From Verrucomicrobiia bacterium (GTDB lineage: Bacteria; Verrucomicrobiota; Verrucomicrobiia; Verrucomicrobiales; DEV007), in assembly GCA_030425385.1 (NCBI GenBank), contig JAUIAH010000006.1, positions 62,001-126,000 of the forward strand: a stretch of 64,000 nucleotides of DNA, in the 5' to 3' direction. The notes beneath the pieces are model-generated. The model made no database searches, was not told where the DNA came from, and worked only from the letters and a program-made list of their open reading frames with translations. Position numbers and translations under genes: made by a program. Positions 5,467-48,593 of this stretch are shown one piece after another. How positions within the stretch are numbered: position 1 is the stretch's first letter; every line of letters begins with the position of its first letter.

Positions 5467-8400
5467 ATGAACCGCTATCGATATCGATGGGCGCTTGCCG
5501 CGCTCATGGCATCGGGATCGTTTGCCTTTCAGGCGACATCCTACGGGCAAAGTGACGTGACCCAACCGGGGGACCCACTGATTGCCAGCTCCGACAATAG
5601 CCCGGGCTCCGAAACGGGCCCGAACGCGATTGATAACCAACCCACCAAGTATTTGAACTTCGACACGGTGGGAACGGATCCCGTGGCATCGGGGTTCGTC
5701 GTCTCGCCCTCGGTGGGCATGACCTTGGTGACTGGACTCGCCATCCAATCCGCCAATGACGCGATTGAACGTGACCCAAAGTGGGTCCGGCTGGAAGGGT
5801 CCAATGACGAAGCGCCGACCTGGGAGGCCGGGGCTTGGCAGACCATCTATGAGAAGAACGATATCGCTGGTTGGGAGACGCTGTTCCCCGATGGCGATCG
5901 TTTCCAGACGCAGAAGTTCTCCTTCGGGAATGACAAACCCTTCCTGCATTACCGCTTCACCGTGGTGGAAGTGCAAGGCGCTGGCGCCAACAGCACGCAG
6001 TATGCGGAGATCGAGCTGCTCGGCTCGGTCATGCCTGGTGATGTGACCCAGCCGGGCGATGCCTTGATCGCAAGTTCGGACAACAGCCCGGGCTCCGAAA
6101 CGGGGCCCAATGCGATCGATGATCAACCGACGAAGTATTTGAACTTCGACACGGTGGGCACCGATCCTGTCCCCTCCGGTTTCGTCGTGACGCCTTCGTT
6201 AGGCCTCACGCGCGTGACGGGTTTGGCGATGCAATCGGCCAATGATGCCATCGAACGCGATCCCAAATGGGTGCGCCTAGAGGGGTCGAATGACCCAGCG
6301 CCGAGCTGGACCGAGGGCAGCTGGGAAGTGATCTATGAGAACAACGAGGTCGAGGCGTGGGAAGTGCTCTTCCCCGGAGGTGATCGCTTCAAAACGCAGG
6401 CGTTCACCTTCGCCAATAGCAAGCCCTTCCGCCACTATCGCTGGACGGTCTTGGAGGTGCAAGGCGCTGGAGCCAACAGCATGCAGATCGCTGAAGTCGA
6501 ACTCTTTGGCGAAGTGATGCCGGGAGACGTGACCTCCCCCGGCGATGCCTTGATCGCAAGTTCAGACAACAGTCCGGGCTCTGAGACCGCTCCCAATGCC
6601 ATTGATGGTCAACCTACCAAATACCTCAACTTTGACACCACGGGTACCGATCCCGTGCCGTCTGGTTTTGTCGTGACGCCGGGTATTGGACGGACGGTTC
6701 TCTATGGGATCACTTTGCAATCGGCCAATGACGCCATCGAGCGCGATCCCAAGATCTTCCGCCTCGAAGGCTCCAATGACGAAGCTCCCTCCTGGGAAAC
6801 CGGTAATTGGACAGTGATCTATGAAAACGACGCGGTGCAGCCGTGGACGGAGTTGTTTCCTGATGGGGACCGCTTCCAAACGCAGACCTTCGTCTTTGAT
6901 AATCTCGCTGCCTACACCCACTACCGCTGGACGGTGGTGGAAGTGCAAGGAGACGGGGCCAATAGCATGCAAATCGCTGAAGTCGAACTGCTCGGCGGCC
7001 CGGCACCGAAGGACGTGACCCAGCCCGGCGATGCCTTGATCGCGAGCTCTGACAATAGTCCAGGATCAGAAACCGCTCCCAATGCGATTGATAACCAGCC
7101 GACCAAGTATCTCAACTTCGATACGACTGGCACGGATCCCTTGCCTTCGGGCTTGGTCGTGACGCCTTCTGTCGGCGCGACGACGGTGACCGGGATAGCC
7201 ATCCAGTCTGCCAACGATGCGGTGGAGCGTGATCCCAAATGGATCCGTTTGGAAGGCTCGAACGACCCCACGCCCTCTTGGGAAAGTGGTAGTTGGGAAG
7301 TGATCTATGAGAACAACGAATTGCCTGCCTGGACCGCGCGTTTCCAGACCCAGGAATTCTATTTCGAGAATACCGCTTCCTATGCGCACTATCGTTTCAC
7401 CGTGGAAGAGGTTCAGGGTGAAGGAGCGAATAGCACCCAATACGCTGAGATCGAACTCCTCGCCGTGACGAAGGGTAATCCCTGTAACATCGCCCGCTTC
7501 AAGACGCAGCCTGTCGACACACCCGTCTTGTTAGGCAAGGGCGCTGGCGCCGAATTCTTCGTAGAAACAAACGGTCCTTGGACGGTGCAGTGGTATAAGA
7601 ATGACGAGCCCATCTCAGGGGCCATTCAGAATCGCTACACCACCGATCCCGTCGGGCCTGATAACGTCGACGATGTCTACACGGTGAAGTTGGTCGGTTG
7701 TGAGGAAGAGGAGACCGGCGTTTCCGCTCCTGCCCTAGCTTACTTGTTGGATCCGTTGGAGAATCCTGTGAGTATCGGCCTGAGTTTCGCTGGTGGTGGT
7801 GCCAATGGCGCGCCCACGCGCTCCGACGATTTGGAAGTCGCTGGCGACGTGTCCCAAGGTTACTGGAACCACTTGCCGCCTGATGGCGATGGCACACCGA
7901 ATGGCATACAAGCCGATCTCTTAGACAGTCTTGGCGACGAGTCAGACATCTCTGTTGAGTGGGCCGCAGATGCTCGTTGGGGGGCAGGCACGGGAACGGA
8001 GAGCTCCATGGCCAAGCTACTCAATGGCTTGATCGAAGGGGGCGGCGCCGAGGACACGCCTGCGACCATCACCTTTAGCAATGTGCCAGAGGGTTCCCAC
8101 TCCGTGCTCATCTACTCAGTAGCACGTCCGCTAGAGTTCCCCAATGCGACTTTCAAGCAAGTGCAAACGGGCGAAGTGGTCGCCATGCGTCAAGAGAACG
8201 CGGACGAATACAATCCCGATCCCTCGCCCCGCCAGGTGACCTCGGCAGACCCCGCGGACACGGTTGGGAACTTTGTTAGGTTCGATAGCATTCGTCCCGT
8301 CGATGGCATTGTCTCCATTGAGTTCTGGGACAACGGCGAAGGAGGAAGTTCAACGATCAATGCGATGCAATTGGTATTGAATGCGCTCTTTGATCCGCCG

Positions 8401-40449: not shown

Positions 40450-41493
40450 TCAACCAACCTTCTTCAGAAAGCTCACACGTCCCGTGGCCACCCATTCAGC
40501 CACGTAGATGTTTCCAGCGCGATCGAAGCAAGCGTCGTGTGGGTGGATGAAACGTCCAGCCTCCCACATAGACGGCGTCTTCCGCATGGCGAATTGATCA
40601 AGTGCCTTCTTGGTCCACGCCTCATCGTAGCCCAAATGCGTGATCACTTGGTTAGACTTGTCGTAGAGAGTGATGCGCGCATGAAGGTCGGGCACTAACA
40701 AGACCTCACCCTGAATATCGAAGTCGGCTGGAAAGCTAACAGTATCCACGAATTCACGATGCACACCCTCCAAGGTAAAGTATTGCAGCCTGGCATTGGC
40801 CCGATCCGCGACCACGAGAGCCGTTTCACGCCCTGGACGATCGTCTAACCAAATGCTATGTGGCGTCCTCATAGTACCAATGCGAGTGCCTTCGCCGCCC
40901 CACGATCGCACCCAATTTGCCTCGCGATCGTACTGATGGATGTAGTGGGAACCATAGCCATCAGCCACATAGAAACCGCCGTCGGGATGGAAAGCGATGT
41001 TGGTGGGGGAGAAACGCGCCTTCTCACCGTAGAACCCGCTATCTTGCGGATGGGCCATGGTCCAGACTTGTTCGCCTGTCAGAGTCGTCTTGGCCACCAG
41101 ACCCTGATTATCGCTAAGATAGAGAAACTCTTCGTTGCCCTCCTTCCTCACATCGATGCCATGACCGCCCCCGCTATACTCCTTTCCGAAAGTCCGCACA
41201 CACTTTCCGGTCTCAGGCTCGAAGACAGCAATCGTGTCCATGGGTTCCTTACCACCGCCGCGATGCTTCACATAGACCAGGCCTTCTGCATCGACCGCCA
41301 CGCCGTGGGTGTCTCGCCACAGGATGTGATCCGGCACCTGCCCCCAGCCGTGATGGCATTCGTATCGAAACCCATCCACGCCGATCACTACTGGTTTGGC
41401 ACCAGTCTTGTCAGCCGTGACGATGTTAGGAAAGAGAGGACCCGCTAGGGCAGTCCCACTGGCGGCAAGGAATCGGCGACGAGAGAGATGCAT
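40450..41493 (-). CDS. Tat-exported NHL/beta-propeller protein
   Basis: The protein has 347 residues. ATG 41493 is preferred because it opens a twin-arginine signal, MHLSRRRFLAASGTALAGPL. The mature part has regularly spaced NHL-like blades: DTHGVAVDAEGLVYVKHRGG, GHGIDVRKEG, PTNIAFHPDGGFYVADGYGS, RTPHSIWLDDRPG and HPHDACFDRAGNIYVAEW. Related exported propellers include peptidylamidoglycolate-lyase-like proteins, but a catalytic role here is not shown. It is divergent from the DUF1080 gene, 81 bases away. Confidence 0.87.
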   Translation of the reverse strand: MHLSRRRFLAASGTALAGPLFPNIVTADKTGAKPVVIGVDGFRYECHHGWGQVPDHILWRDTHGVAVDAEGLVYVKHRGGGKEPMDTIAVFEPETGKCVRTFGKEYSGGGHGIDVRKEGNEEFLYLSDNQGLVAKTTLTGEQVWTMAHPQDSGFYGEKARFSPTNIAFHPDGGFYVADGYGSHYIHQYDREANWVRSWGGEGTRIGTMRTPHSIWLDDRPGRETALVVADRANARLQYFTLEGVHREFVDTVSFPADFDIQGEVLLVPDLHARITLYDKSNQVITHLGYDEAWTKKALDQFAMRKTPSMWEAGRFIHPHDACFDRAGNIYVAEWVATGRVSFLKKVG

Positions 41494-41574
41494 GCCATCA
41501 TCCAACGCCAACAGACTAGGGAAGAGCAAGTGCGAACTTGTCATCCACCAGGCAATCTCTCAGGCTGATTCATC

Positions 41575-42363
41575 ATGAAAACGCCTTTCTTTCCGCTCGT
41601 CTCTCTTCTCCTGATCAACCTCGCATCGGCCGACGAAGCCCCTCAAGCTTCCACTGCGGACAGCCTCGGTTTGGGCGCGAAGCCACCCGCGGGAGCAGAC
41701 ATGCTCCTCGACGGCACCCGAGAGACACTCGATGCGAAATGGACCTATTGGGAAGGGCCACGATTCGCCTCGGCACTTCCTATCAAGTGGAAGATGGTCG
41801 ACGATCCGGTAGATGAAGGCCAGGTCCTCATGACCGACGATCCTGCCGCTGCTGGTGGCAAATACGGAGCTGCTGACATTGTCACCAAGAAGAAATACCG
41901 AGACTTTCGGCTCCATATTGAATTTCTCGTCGTCAAGGAAGGGGGAAATAGCGGCGTCTACCTGCAGAATCGCTACGAGATTCAGATCCTCGATGGCGAC
42001 ATGACGAAGCACGGGATGGGAGCGATCATCAACGAAAGTGAATCTCCGTATGAACTCTATCATGGTGCCGGCAAATGGAACGCCTACGACATGATCTTCC
42101 GCGCAGCGCGGTTTGAGGATGGCAAGCGTACGGAGCCTGCAAAAGTGACCATCTATTTCAATGGAAAGCTTGCCCACGAGGACTTCAGCATCGCCAAAGT
42201 GTGGGGTGGCGCCAACTCAGGGATCGATGGTGGCAACGACAACGGTCGCGGGATCACGGACACGCCAGGCGGTCTCAAGTTGCAATGTGAGGGGCACGAG
42301 GTGCTCTATCGCAACGCCTGGATCCAGGAACTCAACCTCAACGACGGCGATACCCGATTCTGA
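41575..42363 (+). CDS. Secreted DUF1080 (3-keto-disaccharide hydrolase-like) protein
   Basis: The protein has 262 residues with a signal peptide (MKTPFFPLVSLLLINLASAD). The DUF1080 domain (about 70-255) is clear: DFRLHIEFLVVKEGGNSGVY, YEIQILD and WNAYDMIFRAARFEDG, ending GHEVLYRNAWIQEL. This concanavalin-like fold is widely amplified in PVC bacteria. Some members hydrolyse 3-keto-glycosides, which would partner with Gfo/Idh/MocA oxidoreductases like the exported one at 26368. That link is inferred. Confidence 0.92.
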   Translation: MKTPFFPLVSLLLINLASADEAPQASTADSLGLGAKPPAGADMLLDGTRETLDAKWTYWEGPRFASALPIKWKMVDDPVDEGQVLMTDDPAAAGGKYGAADIVTKKKYRDFRLHIEFLVVKEGGNSGVYLQNRYEIQILDGDMTKHGMGAIINESESPYELYHGAGKWNAYDMIFRAARFEDGKRTEPAKVTIYFNGKLAHEDFSIAKVWGGANSGIDGGNDNGRGITDTPGGLKLQCEGHEVLYRNAWIQELNLNDGDTRF

Positions 42364-42682: not shown

Positions 42683-45562
42683 GTGATCGTGAATTTTGTA
42701 AAAGGTCAGCGCTGGGTCAGCAGCATGGAACCCGAACTTGGTCTTGGCATTGTCCAAGAGGTCCTCGATGGCAAAGTGACCATCCAGTTTCCTGCTCATG
42801 AGGAGACGCGCACATACACCGTCGAGAACGCCCCTCTGAAGCGGGTGCGTTTCTCGAAAGGCGAAGCGATTGCGTCACGCGATGGCTCTCGAATTCAGAT
42901 CCAGGAGATCAAGGAGAAGAGTCACCTCTATTACTACTACGGCGATAATGACCATGAGGTGAACGAAAGCGAACTCGCGGATTACCTCAGTTTCTCGAAG
43001 CCTCAGGACCGCTTGCTTGCGGGTCACGCTGACCCGATGGAAGTCTTTGAGCTGCGGCACGAAGCCTTGCGCTGCCAGTTCAACATGCGGAGTTCTCCCC
43101 TGCGTGGTTTTCAGGGCGCGCGCATGGAGTTGATCCCGCACCAGCTGTATGTAGCCCAAGAAGTCTCGTCACGTTACGCTCCGCGCGTTCTCCTGGCTGA
43201 CGAGGTGGGTCTGGGGAAGACCATTGAGGCAGGCTTGATTCTAATGCGCCTTGTCCTGAGTGGCCGGGCTCGCAGAGTGCTCATTCTTGTGCCGGAACCC
43301 CTTCTTCACCAGTGGTTTGTCGAACTATTGAGGCGATTTCAGATGACGTTTGCCATCTTCGATGAGGAGCGCTGCTTGGCGATCGAGGCGGAGGAAATGC
43401 ACGGCGGTCCTCGCCCTCAACCGCCTAAGAAAGCGGCACCAAAGAAGAAGGCAGCTAGCAAGAAGAAATCTGCCGCAAAGAAGAGTGCCCCTGAGTTGGA
43501 CGGTGTGAATCCCTTTCTCGATGAGCAGTTGGTCTTGTGCTCGACGGACTTTCTCACCAACGATGAGCGCCGTGGTCAGCAAGCGCTTGAGGCAGGCTGG
43601 GATTTGTTGATTGTCGATGAGGCCCATCACTTGGAGTGGACGGAGAAGGAAGTGAGCCCCGCCTATGCCTACGTGGAGGAGTTGTCTCAGGTCGTGCAGT
43701 GCCTGATCTTGCTCACGGCCACGCCTGAGCAGTTAGGCCGCGAAGGACATTTCGCCCGTCTGCGCCTCCTTGATCCGGATCGCTATCCCGATCTGAAGAG
43801 TTTCATGGACCAAACGGCGCGTTACGAGGAGATCGCCCATCTTGCGGATGGACTCCTGGGACGGCGCACGATGGAGAACGATGATTGGAAACGCATCAAG
43901 GAGTTGTTTTCCCATTACACAGCCGATGAAATTGCCAATCTCATTGAGGGAGCGGCCATGGAGGATCGCGATTGTCGTGGGAAGCTGTTGGAAGATCTTC
44001 TGGATCAATATGGCACGGGGCGCGTGATGTTCCGTAACCGTCGGGCTGCCATGCATGGCTTTCCCGAGCGCCGGGTGGAACTGATCCCCGTCAAGCCGAA
44101 CGAGAAGAAGGATCCGCACGTCGAATGGCTCGTGGGCTTTCTCAAGGAACTGAAGCCTAACGAGAAAGTCCTCCTCATCTGTGCCACGAAAGAGCGTGTG
44201 GAGGCGATTGCTGAGGCTGTCCGTACGGAGATCAACGTAAAGATGACCAGCTTTCACGAGGACATGACCTTGGTGCAAAGGGATCGTAGCGCGGCCTACT
44301 TTTCCGAGGACGATGGGGCCCAACTGATGCTCTGTTCGGAGATCGGGAGCGAAGGGCGCAACTTCCAGTTTGCACACCGCCTGGTCTTGTTAGACCTCCC
44401 CTTGGATCCGGCGCTGTTAGAGCAGCGGATCGGACGTCTGGATCGCATCGGGCAAACGGAGACTATTCAGATCTTTGTCCCCTACCTCATCAAGACTGGC
44501 GAAGAAATGATCACTCGCTGGTATCATGAGGGGCTAGACGCCTTCGAAACTTGTCAGCAATCTGGGCATCGTTATGTGAAGAAATTTGGCGAGCCGCTCA
44601 CCAAACTGATGGAGAAGACCGACAGCTCAGGGCGCTTCGAGAAGAAGCGTTTTGAAACGCTGTTAGAAGAAACCGCAGCCTTCCACGCAGAAACGGTTCG
44701 AGAGCTGGAAGCCGGTCGCGACCATTTGTTAGAGTTGAATTCCTTCCGCGATGAGCCAGCGCTCCAGTTGGTGGATGACATTTCGAAGGCGGATAACGAT
44801 CAAGAGTTGGAACAGTTCTTTCTCCGCATCGTCGATCACTTTGGGGTCACCGTGGAGGAGCTTCAAGAGCACGTCTATCACCTCAAGCCTGAGCACGTGT
44901 ACACGGATGCGTTTCCCAACTTGCCCGAGGAAGGTGTGTCCGTGACGCTTGACCGTCACATGGCTCTCAAACGCGAGGAGATGCAGTTTCTCACTTGGGA
45001 TCATCCCATGCTGCGTGGATCTCTCGACCTCTTGTTAGGCTCGGAGCAAGGGAATTGCTCGTTTGGCTACATGGATGCCACGGGTCCCAAGATGCTCTTC
45101 TTAGAGGCTGTCTATCTGCTGGAGTGCATTGCCCCCACCCATCTGCATGCCGATCGTTTCTTCCCGGCAACGCCCATCCGCGTGCTGGTGAATCATCGGA
45201 ATGAGGACTATTCGAACACGATCGCCTTCGATCAGATGGAAGAATACATCCGTCCGGGCAAGCCTCAGTGGGTGCAGAAGAATATCCACATCCTCCAAGA
45301 TCTCCTGCCAAAGCTGCAAAGCTTCGCCGAGAAGATTGCTGAAGAGCAGGTTCCTGACATCATCTCAGGCAACCGAGTGGTCATGCGGACCAAGCTTCGC
45401 ATGGAGGTCGATCGGCTCCGTCATCTGCAATCGATCAACAATCACGTGCGTGATGACGAGATAGAGATGGCTGAGCACTGCTTGTCCGAGTTGGAAGTGG
45501 CCATGGGTGCCGCGCGGCTGCGCCTTGATTCCATGCGCCTCCTCTACAAGGGCGATGATTGA
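42683..45562 (+). CDS. RapA/HepA-like SNF2-family ATPase
   Basis: The protein has 959 residues with a GTG start at 42683. Helicase motif I DEVGLGKTIEAG (about 172), motif II VDEAHH (about 311), motif III LLTATP and motif VI QRIGRLDRIGQ (about 587) are intact. The N-terminal region (about 1-120, KGQRWVSSMEPELGLGIVQE) matches the Tudor-like part of RapA, which recycles RNA polymerase. A Lys/Ala-rich insert of about 25 residues (about 248-272) interrupts the first helicase lobe and could bind nucleic acid. RapA is the best match, but other bacterial SNF2 proteins are possible. Confidence 0.88.
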   Translation: MIVNFVKGQRWVSSMEPELGLGIVQEVLDGKVTIQFPAHEETRTYTVENAPLKRVRFSKGEAIASRDGSRIQIQEIKEKSHLYYYYGDNDHEVNESELADYLSFSKPQDRLLAGHADPMEVFELRHEALRCQFNMRSSPLRGFQGARMELIPHQLYVAQEVSSRYAPRVLLADEVGLGKTIEAGLILMRLVLSGRARRVLILVPEPLLHQWFVELLRRFQMTFAIFDEERCLAIEAEEMHGGPRPQPPKKAAPKKKAASKKKSAAKKSAPELDGVNPFLDEQLVLCSTDFLTNDERRGQQALEAGWDLLIVDEAHHLEWTEKEVSPAYAYVEELSQVVQCLILLTATPEQLGREGHFARLRLLDPDRYPDLKSFMDQTARYEEIAHLADGLLGRRTMENDDWKRIKELFSHYTADEIANLIEGAAMEDRDCRGKLLEDLLDQYGTGRVMFRNRRAAMHGFPERRVELIPVKPNEKKDPHVEWLVGFLKELKPNEKVLLICATKERVEAIAEAVRTEINVKMTSFHEDMTLVQRDRSAAYFSEDDGAQLMLCSEIGSEGRNFQFAHRLVLLDLPLDPALLEQRIGRLDRIGQTETIQIFVPYLIKTGEEMITRWYHEGLDAFETCQQSGHRYVKKFGEPLTKLMEKTDSSGRFEKKRFETLLEETAAFHAETVRELEAGRDHLLELNSFRDEPALQLVDDISKADNDQELEQFFLRIVDHFGVTVEELQEHVYHLKPEHVYTDAFPNLPEEGVSVTLDRHMALKREEMQFLTWDHPMLRGSLDLLLGSEQGNCSFGYMDATGPKMLFLEAVYLLECIAPTHLHADRFFPATPIRVLVNHRNEDYSNTIAFDQMEEYIRPGKPQWVQKNIHILQDLLPKLQSFAEKIAEEQVPDIISGNRVVMRTKLRMEVDRLRHLQSINNHVRDDEIEMAEHCLSELEVAMGAARLRLDSMRLLYKGDD

Positions 45563-45565
45563 TTC

Positions 45566-46423
45566 ATGAGCTTGAGTCCGCGCCAACCGCCCCGGCTCGG
45601 GCTTCGTCTGGTCGTCGCACTCCCTGCGGAAGCATCCCCACTGATTTCACAGCTAGCACTTTCGCCGATTCCTGGAGAGCACCCCTTCAAGATCTATCGC
45701 GACACCGCTCAGTTGCATTGGCTCATTGTTTCTGGCATTGGCAGGCACGCCTCTAGCATTGCCACTGCCTACCTGGCAGGCCTGAGTCGTGCCCAGAAGT
45801 CAGTTGCCTGGTTGAATGTGGGCATCGCCGGACACGCCACACTCCCCGTCGGTGAGATCCGAGCGGCGCACAAGATCACAGATGCGACCTTGGGCACCTC
45901 TTATTATCCCCCGGTGCTCTTCGACAAGCTCTCGACGGAATCACTCATGACCATGCCTGAGCCTGAAAGCGCTATCGGCTCTAACATGCTAGTTGATATG
46001 GAGGCTGCAGGCTTCTACGCATCCGCGGCGACCTTCGCATCCCCTGAGCTGATCCACGCCATCAAGGTCGTTTCCGATCATGGCATGCAAGCGGGACAAC
46101 GCCTTTCCAAGGCCACCGTCACGGAATGGATCAATCAGCAGCGTCCCGCCTTACAACAGGCCATGGAGAAACTGCTCGATCTTTCCAATCAGTTTGCCCA
46201 GCGCTGGGCGGATCCAGATTATTACGATGCGATCCTAGCAGAGTATCACTTCACGGCCACACAGAAGAATCAGCTGCGGCGACTGCTGCAGCGTTGGCAG
46301 GTGCTCTTGAAGGACGACGATGTGGTCGATTTCGTGTGGAAGCACGCAGCCACTGGACGCGAGGTACTGGCGTCCCTGGCCGAACGGCTCGATCGCGAGT
46401 CGCTGACATTGCCCGAGGCATGA
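45566..46423 (+). CDS. Nucleoside phosphorylase/nucleosidase-like protein with extra C-terminal helical domain
   Basis: The protein has 285 residues. The first ~190 follow the PNP/UDP-phosphorylase fold: RLVVALPAEASPLISQLAL, WLNVGIAGHATLPVGEI and VDMEAAGFYASAATF, with the family's substrate-binding Met-Glu. About 95 further residues are mostly helical (QKNQLRRLLQRWQVLLKDDD). It begins 3 bases after the SNF2 gene, and its stop overlaps the start of the radical SAM gene (ATGA). From memory such proteins are often paired with spore-photoproduct-lyase-like enzymes, which suggests a shared DNA-damage role; this is inference. Confidence 0.72.
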   Translation: MSLSPRQPPRLGLRLVVALPAEASPLISQLALSPIPGEHPFKIYRDTAQLHWLIVSGIGRHASSIATAYLAGLSRAQKSVAWLNVGIAGHATLPVGEIRAAHKITDATLGTSYYPPVLFDKLSTESLMTMPEPESAIGSNMLVDMEAAGFYASAATFASPELIHAIKVVSDHGMQAGQRLSKATVTEWINQQRPALQQAMEKLLDLSNQFAQRWADPDYYDAILAEYHFTATQKNQLRRLLQRWQVLLKDDDVVDFVWKHAATGREVLASLAERLDRESLTLPEA

Positions 46424-47370
46424 TCAGCGCGCTCTATGTTGAGGAATCCATTTGGGAGCATCCTCGCGCACTGGCGCTCCGTGAGCGCTTTGCCAAGGTG
46501 CCGCACATCCGCTGTGAGCGCTACGGCGAAGTCTTCAATCGTCACGGCCAGGACTTCCGCGTGCAGAAGTCGCGGCCAGCTCTGATCCTAGCAGAGAAAC
46601 ATCGCCACCACGTCCTTCCAACGCCACCCGGCTACGGAATCGGTGGCCAGGCAAACTACTATTTCTCCCATATTCTCAACTGCCTTTACGATTGCCGATA
46701 CTGCTTCCTCCAGGGACTCTATCAATCCGCAAACTACGTCTTCTTCCTGAACTTCGAAGCCTTTCAGTTAGAAATGAAGGCTTTGCTAGATAAGCACCAT
46801 GACAACGTCTATTTCTTCTCCGGCTACGATGGCGATTCCTTCGCGCTCGAAAGCCTCACGGGGTTTGTACGCGCCCACTTGCCCTTCTTTGCCCAACATC
46901 CCCGCGCTCAACTGGAACTTCGCACGAAGAGTCTCAAGGCCAAGGACCTCGCCGCCTGCACTCCCCTTCCCAATGTCATCGTCGCGTTCACCCTCACCCC
47001 TGAGCGGATCTCGCGAGAGTGGGAATCGGGCGTGCCGCCGCTCGCGAAACGACTTGATGTGATGCAAGCGTTAGCAGAGCAGGGCTGGCCGATCGGATTG
47101 CGGATGGATCCTATCATTCCCATCGAAAGCTATCAGCAGCATTATGGTGAGCTGCTAGATCAGGTCTTTCAACGTCTCGAACCCGCTCAGATTCATTCCG
47201 CAACGCTTGGATCCATGCGTTTTCCCAAAGCCATGCACAAGACCATGGTCAAGCTCCACCCAGAGGAGCCTCTCTTCGCGACGTCTGATCCGGGCGATGC
47301 ACCTGTTTCCTGGCTCTCAGAACAACTCGGTCGCTGGCTTCCTGCTAGCAAGATCTTCCCATGCACCTGA
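46420..47370 (+). CDS. Spore-photoproduct-lyase-like radical SAM protein
   Basis: The protein has 316 residues from ATG 46420, which overlaps the previous stop; the open frame extends further upstream. The cluster motif is CLYDCRYC, spaced C-x3-C-x2-C, the spacing seen in SplB relatives. It sits after YYFSHILN, and FFSGYDGDSFALESLTGF follows. Canonical SplB repairs spore photoproduct thymine dimers using SAM and a 4Fe-4S cluster. The organism is not an obvious spore former, so repair of another lesion, or another substrate, is possible. Coupling to the nucleosidase-like gene supports a joint function. Confidence 0.88.
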   Translation: MISALYVEESIWEHPRALALRERFAKVPHIRCERYGEVFNRHGQDFRVQKSRPALILAEKHRHHVLPTPPGYGIGGQANYYFSHILNCLYDCRYCFLQGLYQSANYVFFLNFEAFQLEMKALLDKHHDNVYFFSGYDGDSFALESLTGFVRAHLPFFAQHPRAQLELRTKSLKAKDLAACTPLPNVIVAFTLTPERISREWESGVPPLAKRLDVMQALAEQGWPIGLRMDPIIPIESYQQHYGELLDQVFQRLEPAQIHSATLGSMRFPKAMHKTMVKLHPEEPLFATSDPGDAPVSWLSEQLGRWLPASKIFPCT

Positions 47371-47388: not shown

Positions 47389-48435
47389 TCACGTGTGCGT
47401 GAGTTTGAATTCTTTGCTTTCAGCAAGCAACTGCTGGACAGCTTTGCGGTAGGGAGCGGGCATGGCGAGGGCCGGGATCGATGCCAACGGGTGCCACTGA
47501 CCTTCGGTTAACGTTTCTTCACAGGCGTGCACATGAAGGGTCACGCGATAGTGTGTGATGCTGTATTTCGCTTTGTAGAGCAGGGATCCACGAGAATCAG
47601 CCTCGCCACATTCAGGAAGTTTCCACAGTCCCTTGCGGCGTTTGCCCGTTTCCTGCACGAGGCGTAGCTTTCCCTCACGGAGACACCACCAGACATGTTC
47701 CTCGACAAACTCAGTGGCTTTCCGCTTGGTCTTGACGGGAAGCGCTACGGGATCGCGCGTCTGGCAGAAGTCTCGCACAGGACAGGCAGGACAATCGGGT
47801 TGCTTCTGCGCACAAATGGTCTGCCCAAGTTCCATCAACCCGCTATTGTAGGCGCGCGCCCCATCCTTTGGCACCAGGGCTTCCGCCCATGCCCACAGTT
47901 GCTTCTGACCCGCCGGCCGATCCACCTCTTGACGAAAGTCAAAGAGTCTAGCGAACACACGATGAACATTGCCGTCGACGAGGGGCACGGATAAGTCATG
48001 GGCAAATGAGAGGACGGCACCCGCCGTGTAGCGCCCGACTCCAGGCAGCGCTAACATTCCCTCCAAAGTCTCTGGCAAGCGGCCATCATGCTCTGCACAC
48101 ACGACGATTGCCAATTGATGCAAACTCCGTGCCCGTCGATAGTAGCCTAGCCCCTCCCAAGCCTTGAGAACAGCGTCCTCCGGCGCCTTGGCAAGCGCTT
48201 CCACAGTGGGAAAGGCCTCCAGCCACCGCTCATAATAGCCGCGATCGAGGACGGTCGCGATCTGCGTCTGCTGAAGCATCATCTCAGATACGAGGATGGC
48301 GTAGGGATCCTGGGTTTCCCGCCAAGGATAGGTCCGGCCAACTTGGCGAAACCACGTCACGAGGGCAGCTTGGAAAGCCGACGCCGCCTCCAGGACATGG
48401 TGGACCGCTTCAGGTTTGGTAGCATCGGAAATCAC
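47389..48435 (-). CDS. mutY: A/G-specific adenine glycosylase
   Basis: The protein has 348 residues from a GTG at 48435, the length usual for MutY; longer upstream starts look non-coding. SEMMLQQTQ carries the catalytic Glu. LPGVGRYTAGAVLSFAHD is the helix-hairpin-helix, and VDGNVHRV holds the catalytic Asp. The iron-sulfur loop is C-x6-C-x2-C-x5-C. A C-terminal NUDIX-like region should read 8-oxoguanine. It removes adenine mispaired with oxidised guanine. The gene converges on the radical SAM gene, leaving 18 bases. Confidence 0.95.
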   Translation of the reverse strand: MISDATKPEAVHHVLEAASAFQAALVTWFRQVGRTYPWRETQDPYAILVSEMMLQQTQIATVLDRGYYERWLEAFPTVEALAKAPEDAVLKAWEGLGYYRRARSLHQLAIVVCAEHDGRLPETLEGMLALPGVGRYTAGAVLSFAHDLSVPLVDGNVHRVFARLFDFRQEVDRPAGQKQLWAWAEALVPKDGARAYNSGLMELGQTICAQKQPDCPACPVRDFCQTRDPVALPVKTKRKATEFVEEHVWWCLREGKLRLVQETGKRRKGLWKLPECGEADSRGSLLYKAKYSITHYRVTLHVHACEETLTEGQWHPLASIPALAMPAPYRKAVQQLLAESKEFKLTHT

Positions 48436-48593
48436 GCGGCATCCTCGGGGGCGCGTTGAGCTTGTCAACGCGCATGCAATCTTGCCCAATCCCGCGAGAA
48501 TTCCTCGCGCCACCGGGATGTCCGTGCATGGTGTAACTTGTTGCTTACGAATTCCTTCACAACCCCCGAATCTAGTTAAAACGTGTGCTGTAG

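Follow-up and report, generated by a model that had tools for sequence, protein, structure and literature searches.

The 64,000-nucleotide stretch of contig JAUIAH010000006.1 analysed here (the window), which comes from a Verrucomicrobiia bacterium, contains three tightly spaced genes on its forward strand: rapA, coding for an SNF2 ATPase, a gene for a nucleosidase-like protein with a helical C-terminal extension (NUC), and one for a radical-SAM (S-adenosylmethionine) protein that resembles the spore photoproduct lyase SplB (SPL). A mutY gene converges on them from the other strand (Table 1). Three bases separate rapA from NUC, NUC and SPL overlap by 4 bases, and 18 bases lie between the SPL stop and mutY. 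The first-pass annotation of this DNA had named the four genes correctly (SNF2, nucleosidase-like, SplB-like and mutY) and at the right coordinates, and its gaps of 3 and -4 bases and its convergent mutY are borne out by the open reading frames (ORFs). The arrangement of the trio is not a product of chance, because the 3-base spacing between rapA and NUC is kept in two congeners and the adjacency of NUC and SPL recurs in several phyla. It is the NUC-SPL pair, not the trio, that is the real unit.

Table 1. Genes, domains and active-site positions at the locus, in window coordinates
Feature	Position	Strand	Basis
rapA	42683-45562	+	ORF, GTG start, 959 aa
NUC, predicted MTAN-fold nucleosidase with helical C-terminal extension, SPL partner	45566-46423	+	ORF, ATG start, 285 aa
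NUC Glu22	45629-45631	+	invariant in 17 rows of NUC alignment; 1nc1 chain 1-232 aligned with model 11-206
NUC Met145-Glu146	45998-46003	+	invariant in 17-row alignment
NUC Ser170-Asp171	46073-46078	+	invariant in 17-row alignment
NUC C-terminal helical stretch, residues ~212-285	46199-46420	+	predicted helices 220-226, 231-247, 253-260, 264-276
SPL, SplB-like radical-SAM protein	46420-47370	+	ORF, ATG start, 316 aa
SPL CxxxCxxC (Cys88/Cys92/Cys95), [4Fe-4S] binding motif	46681-46704	+	Cys in 92/92 family ORFs
SPL Tyr136, at the site of the spore photoproduct lyase H-atom donor Cys141 (Bs numbering; Cys140 in the solved enzyme)	46825-46827	+	HMMER alignment to 4k9r; Tyr 92/92
SPL Gly138	46831-46833	+	column is Cys 79, Gly 9, Thr 4 of 92
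SPL Lys170	46927-46929	+	alignment to 4k9r; Lys 92/92
mutY, convergent neighbour, outside the conserved module	47389-48513	-	TIGR01084 278.7 bits, slightly below the cut-off of 286.5

Co-occurrence, adjacency and fusion of NUC and SPL

When 288 genomes drawn evenly from the phylum were searched, strong matches to SPL (E<1e-70) and to NUC (E<1e-30) were found in exactly the same five genomes (Fisher test, 6e-11), at thresholds chosen after the E-values had been seen and with SPL matches of 1e-15 to 1e-19 in four genomes and a NUC match of 8e-11 in G594 left uncounted. The two genes are adjacent in four of the five genomes and about 3 kb apart in the other, G370. Closer to the window, SPL is present in six and NUC in nine of 57 relatives, and every genome with SPL also has NUC (Fisher test, 2e-6; the SPL count excludes a G008 match with an E-value of 1.3e-20 and 28% identity, whose 425-aa ORF lacks the family motif). 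In the phylogenetic profile that the first-pass annotation had proposed as a check on the three genes, NUC and SPL do travel together, as in the five shared genomes, and RapA does not track them. Among Pseudomonadota SPL is rare, with one strong match in 249 genomes (that of the centre genome itself) and weak matches in four.

At least 488 loci with SPL relatives were confirmed in named genomes, of which the best 80 were analysed, so that our adjacency counts cover close relatives. These 80 loci span Methylococcales, Verrucomicrobiales, Chlamydiae, Marinimicrobia, Planctomycetota, Latescibacterota, Acidobacteriota and others, and NUC lies directly upstream of SPL in 18 of them, in several phyla. 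A search of 26 genomes in which NUC does not neighbour SPL found it in 25 (in one of these, L107, on the same locus; the G073 copy is interrupted by a stop, and G081 carries an additional NUC fragment), and the one exception among the 26, G078, is a 1.4 Mb assembly. At the L107 locus (6116-6904), from Latescibacteria, NUC is followed with a 4-base overlap by a gene resembling phytanoyl-CoA dioxygenase.

In Fusobacterium vincentii SB055 the two proteins are encoded as one, in a single 623-aa ORF (L183, 5104-6975) that matches NUC with 126 bits and SPL with 270 bits and is followed by a short-chain dehydrogenase (SDR) gene. This fusion was the one informative case in a plasmid search for SPL that returned 12 records, seven of them annotated as SPL or SPL family; the 2.1 Mb record that carries it is labelled a plasmid and is probably a chromosome. 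Tree distances of NUC and SPL also agree, with a Mantel rho of 0.74 across 47 genomes that none of 999 permutations reached and that was computed with no control for species relationship. Searches for mtnN and queC covered 42 (28 with SPL, 14 SPL-negative) of the 63 genomes used for the partner genes discussed below. NUC tracks this SPL family, because 11 of the 14 SPL-negative genomes lack it and none of the 14 has mtnN over the cut-off (there was one weak match); we assume that these genomes contain other radical-SAM enzymes. No description of the NUC-SPL pairing was found in the openly accessible literature, subscription literature lying mostly outside the search.

Folds and active sites of the two proteins

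The AlphaFold2 model of NUC (pLDDT 92) places residues 8-211 in the fold of 5'-methylthioadenosine (MTA)/S-adenosylhomocysteine (SAH) nucleosidase (MTAN), with a VIA-align Z-score of 21.9 to the MTA nucleosidase 2h8g and predicted-fold scores of about 20-22 against MTA/SAH nucleosidase and futalosine hydrolase structures. Three sets of residues appear to have kept their catalytic places: we take Glu22 to be the counterpart of the general-base Glu of MTAN (presumably Glu12 in E. coli MTAN), Met145-Glu146 that of the ribose-binding Met-Glu pair, and Ser170-Asp171 that of the purine-protonating Ser-Asp pair. NUC shares with MtnN/Pfs and futalosine hydrolase both the fold and the catalytic Glu, Met-Glu and Ser-Asp; it differs from them in its sub-cut-off scores, its C-terminal helical stretch and its tie to one radical-SAM family. 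By sequence, no curated family is matched above its cut-off, the best NCBIfam match reaching 17.5 bits. The MtnN models TIGR01704 and NF004079 match neither the window's protein nor, at E up to 1e-8, the window's genome (G000), and the NUC of locus L104 reaches 12.3 of the required 73.8 bits and 22.4 of 169 bits, respectively. For the futalosine hydrolase MqnB (TIGR03664, cut-off 124.7) there was no match in the window, 27 bits for L104 and 17 bits for the Fusobacterium fusion. Pfam matches to enterotoxin and coiled-coil families (E 0.005-0.2, below cut-off) and a weak SelB match of the C-terminal part (E 0.13) were taken as chance.

The additional helical domain that the first-pass annotation had seen on the nucleosidase is also present in the model, where the predicted C-terminal stretch, viewed as part of the whole model, is barely covered by the matched structures and lies outside their aligned range. 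It is shortened or absent in L015 and L016, which belong to G008 (a genome without SPL of this family) and G024 (where SPL is on another contig). We describe NUC as a predicted nucleosidase of MTAN fold that keeps the catalytic residues and adds a helical C-terminal extension.

SPL is modelled with a full-length spore-photoproduct-lyase fold (Z 28.8 to 4fhc, rmsd 3.0, 308 aligned residues), the best chain from outside that enzyme family scoring Z 14.9. Its sequence matches PF20903 at 6.6e-17 and stays well under the equivalent curated models, with 69.9 bits on TIGR04070 (cut-off 400) and 47 bits on TIGR03886 (cut-off 437.55); the SPL proteins of L104, L054 and the fusion are likewise below both cut-offs. 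With spore photoproduct lyase (SplB, TIGR04070; 4fhc, 4rh0) it shares the whole fold, the CxxxCxxC motif and the equivalents of Lys174 and Tyr97, the former being Lys170, which we take to be the counterpart of Lys174 (as we number it). It differs by an identity of 15-16%, by the replacements Cys141 to Tyr and Tyr99 to Phe, and by its NUC, SDR and glycosyltransferase partners.

The replaced residues are central to the known repair reaction, in which Cys141 supplies the thymine radical with a hydrogen atom, and Tyr99 and Tyr97 return the radical to SAM (PMC5368176). Within our family of 92 ORFs (95 minus L007, L148 and L149, with the window's copy counted twice, as L001 and L022) the Tyr97 column is invariant, the Tyr99 column holds Phe in 88 ORFs and Tyr in four, and the Cys141 column is always Tyr, an equivalence that comes from sequence alignment by HMMER and not from model coordinates. 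No invariant cysteine exists outside CxxxCxxC. Cys138 was considered as the family's hydrogen donor and rejected as not essential, since it is Cys in only 79 of the 92; the same column is Gly also in the g6 relatives L002 and L003 and in some Methylococcales. The enzyme of C. acetobutylicum carries its Cys elsewhere, at C74 (PMC5368176), and in columns 74-76, the estimated place of this alternative, Cys occurs in two of the 92 ORFs, the window's not among them. SPL is a subfamily of its own among radical-SAM proteins of this fold, and judging from the aligned sequences it is probably not a spore photoproduct lyase, because the hydrogen-donor column is Tyr throughout. We agree with the first-pass annotation that the substrate of this SplB-like protein is an open question.

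RapA and other neighbours

The SNF2 protein is, by sequence, a bona fide and ordinary RapA (HepA), the RNA polymerase-associated SNF2 ATPase: it scores 1066 bits on NF003426 (equivalog cut-off 576) and 2e-111 on PF12137, has RapA_C and both RapA Tudor domains in the order Tudor, Tudor, SNF2, RapA_C, and finds its nearest solved chains in RapA. All domains of RapA are there, and we found no difference from it. Next to the RapA score, PADLOC matches to DpdE, BrxH and DrmD (best 180 bits) resemble background from the SNF2 superfamily, and an anti-phage role was set aside; NUC and SPL had no PADLOC match at E up to 0.1.

RapA is widespread, with a RapA_C domain in 42 of the 57 relatives, and rarely meets the other two genes. 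In 30 RapA loci, retrieved with about 1.5 kb per side where the contig allowed, NUC lies beside RapA in three, all of them in the window's genus. The congeners G001 and G002 keep the 3-base spacing of the window; in G002 rapA-NUC and mutY (L180, 10739-11785, identified by eye) are kept and SPL is missing between NUC and mutY, and in G001 the contig ends just past NUC. A genome search found no SPL elsewhere in G001 or G002. The complete trio was seen in the window's genome alone, among 30 RapA loci and 80 SPL loci, and the sole RapA-like ORF in the latter (L073, 13648-16557, from a Methylococcaceae metagenome-assembled genome) lies about 4.7 kb downstream of SPL. We rejected RapA as a module partner on this synteny (3/30 and 1/80); it is a bystander that at most shares a transcript with NUC-SPL. 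Upstream of rapA lie genes for a 3-keto-disaccharide hydrolase-like protein (41575-42363) and an NHL-repeat protein (40450-41544), with no visible relation to NUC-SPL.

Other partners recur more closely. In 56 of 79 loci SPL is immediately followed by an SDR that belongs to a single sequence cluster, and in 44 of 80 this gene lies within 300 bases; L091 has an aldo/keto reductase instead. In the laboratory methanotroph Methylotuvimicrobium buryatense 5G (L054) SPL stands with the SDR and NUC lies apart from them. The gene immediately upstream of NUC codes for a family-2 glycosyltransferase (GT2) in seven of 80 loci (L060, L066, L067, L070, L091, L101, L111) and in Methylomonas L146; the eight members aligned show 56-62% identity to the first row. 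In the 63-genome sets, from which G078 (no NUC) was left out, SDR orthologues (E<1e-80) occur in 19 of 35 genomes with SPL and in none of 28 without, and GT2 orthologues (E<1e-60) in 26 of 35 and two of 28, respectively (5e-8), six genomes with GT2 matches of 1e-40 to 1e-50 not being counted and the thresholds again being chosen after the E-values had been seen. The window's own genome has GT2 on another contig. The functions of SDR and GT2 are assigned by family match, and most neighbour genes are unannotated. The core of the module is NUC-SPL; GT2 is common and the reductase depends on lineage.

Genes with a repair flavour also occur nearby. In four Verrucomicrobiales (L216-L219) the next gene after GT2, in the same orientation, codes for a DNA photolyase, and in L213 GT2 stands about 2.8 kb before one, the photolyases being identified by Pfam (PF00875, PF03441) in L216 and L217 and by sequence cluster in L218, L219 and L213; this neighbourhood could reflect local synteny, or it could point to a connection with light damage. 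Twelve of the 80 SPL loci contain a PriA-like gene (cluster c11, identified by eye), mostly four to six genes downstream, in what looks like fixed Methylococcales gene order. Locus L110 has a UvrD-like helicase (by eye). Reading by eye covered 20 of the 30 clusters of recurrent neighbours (two without full name or function), so repair genes may have been missed.

A possible pathway and its alternatives

We suggest, with about even confidence, that NUC and SPL both serve as enzymes in a single, hitherto undescribed pathway of radical-SAM modification, where NUC would cleave adenine from a 5'-deoxyadenosyl product of SPL. The chemistry is what we infer from the co-occurrence, adjacency, fusion, folds, active-site residues and partner genes observed. 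The [4Fe-4S] cluster of SPL would cleave SAM to a 5'-deoxyadenosyl radical acting on a substrate other than spore photoproduct, and NUC, as an MTAN-type enzyme, would then remove adenine from the resulting product. Such depurination is the best reading because a radical-SAM enzyme is fused to an MTAN-fold nucleosidase. In the version that we favour, the product would be an adenosyl adduct on the substrate, which NUC would trim, leaving a free sugar for the SDR (or aldo/keto reductase) to reduce and for GT2 to elaborate. The same logic of an adduct followed by sugar processing is known from hopanoid and arsenosugar synthesis: HpnH-HpnG (hopanoids), ArsS with a nucleosidase (arsenosugars) and MqnE-MqnB (futalosine) all carry out radical-SAM adenosylation and then depurination. 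NUC-SPL is like these systems in pairing a radical-SAM enzyme with an adenosine nucleosidase, with sugar processing to follow; HpnH, ArsS and MqnE, however, belong to a radical-SAM family other than that of the SPL fold. None of the NCBIfam models of HpnH, ArsS or MqnE type matched the SPL proteins scanned (window, L104, L054 and the fusion), and neither NUC nor SPL gave an HpnG or HpnH match at E up to 0.5 (window) or 0.1 (scanned relatives) in a library that includes another hpn model, HpnB.

In the alternative version NUC would clear free 5'-deoxyadenosine, a radical-SAM reaction product that inhibits radical-SAM enzymes; MTAN-fold enzymes cleave 5'-substituted adenosines (PMC8102628). In favour of such clearance, mtnN is over the cut-off in just one of 28 SPL genomes, so that NUC may be the only enzyme of this kind in SPL genomes. 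Against mere clearance, the distribution of NUC matches that of this SPL family and presumably not that of radical-SAM enzymes in general. More tentatively, and with clearly less confidence than in the pathway itself, we propose that a phylum-crossing set of four genes (GT2, NUC, SPL, SDR or aldo/keto reductase) builds an adenosyl-derived product, either a metabolite or a modification on a macromolecule, in which an SPL-fold enzyme with its repair Cys swapped for Tyr would attach the 5'-deoxyadenosyl radical and the others would trim and decorate the sugar.

Scattering of the genes in relatives, which the first-pass annotation had named as an argument against its own module, is what we see for RapA, and for NUC and SPL by half: in the window's family the two are neighbours in three of six genomes and on different contigs in the other three, yet both are present in all six. 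This separation is one of several observations that weigh against the proposed pathway. NUC does not neighbour SPL in 62 of the 80 loci, from whose genomes the 26 searched were taken, and three genomes have NUC without SPL: G001, G002 and G008, the last with a truncated copy. The window's genome lacks the SDR orthologue (its best match, 3e-33, is generic), as do 16 of the 35 SPL genomes; GT2 is missing from nine of the 35 and present without SPL in G003 and G008. As the C. acetobutylicum enzyme has a displaced Cys (PMC5368176), the loss of Cys141 alone does not exclude repair chemistry. The rarity of mtnN in SPL genomes means that NUC could be a general 5'-deoxyadenosine/MTA nucleosidase there, and adduct trimming and free 5'-deoxyadenosine clearance are not told apart by the evidence.

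Some of these points feed directly into rival explanations, of which we find a nucleic-acid repair or base-editing pair without RapA the least improbable, though still unlikely: SPL would reverse a DNA or RNA base lesion and NUC would clear a nucleoside or 5'-deoxyadenosine. The full fold with its Lys174 and Tyr97 equivalents, the GT2-photolyase neighbourhood in Verrucomicrobiales, rapA and mutY in the window, the PriA-like gene and the L110 helicase all fit this idea, and other SplB-like proteins accompany DNA-repair genes (PMC3765255). It is opposed by the Tyr in place of the hydrogen-donor Cys in every family member and by the probability that the PriA-like gene reflects fixed Methylococcales gene order; moreover, the closest recurrent partners, a reductase and a glycosyltransferase, are ill-suited to repair and suit biosynthesis or modification more. 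The view of the first-pass annotation, in which RapA joins NUC and SPL in a DNA-damage module, could appeal to the tight spacing and to its conservation in two congeners, but RapA is too widespread among relatives, and adjoins NUC in too few loci of one genus, for us to regard it as anything other than highly improbable.

NUC could instead be a housekeeping 5'-deoxyadenosine/MTA nucleosidase whose pairing with SPL is incidental, as its MTAN fold, its occurrence without SPL in three genomes and the presence of mtnN over the cut-off in just one of 42 genomes might suggest. This is difficult to reconcile with the same five of 288 genomes, the 25 of 26 genomes, the Fusobacterium fusion and the 11 SPL-negative genomes that lack both NUC and mtnN, and we consider it improbable. 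We hold in equally low regard a salvage route similar to that of queuosine, in which NUC would free a modified base from its nucleoside and SPL would trim the base, as QueK and QueL (the latter, we presume, a radical-SAM enzyme) do on queuosine. Nucleosidase and lyase do share one operon in Clostridioides difficile (PMC11130926, PMC11477304), and the NUC-SPL module occurs in Chlamydiae and Fusobacterium. QueK, however, belongs to IPR023186, whereas the structures matched by NUC are of MTAN type; the window's unit has no transporter gene; and queC is usually present, over the cut-off in 24 of the 28 genomes with SPL and in 10 of the 14 without it, so that salvage is not evidently needed. Neither SDR nor GT2 has an evident role in such a route.

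SPL-fold proteins of non-sporulating bacteria are commonly named photoproduct lyases. Here a whole SPL subfamily, found in methanotrophs and Verrucomicrobiota as well as in Chlamydiae, Marinimicrobia and Fusobacterium, no longer has the repair Cys and is linked with a nucleosidase through co-occurrence and fusion, which is a warning that an SplB-like annotation should not be read as DNA repair. What had been a vague label becomes a concrete, testable two-enzyme system with likely downstream enzymes.

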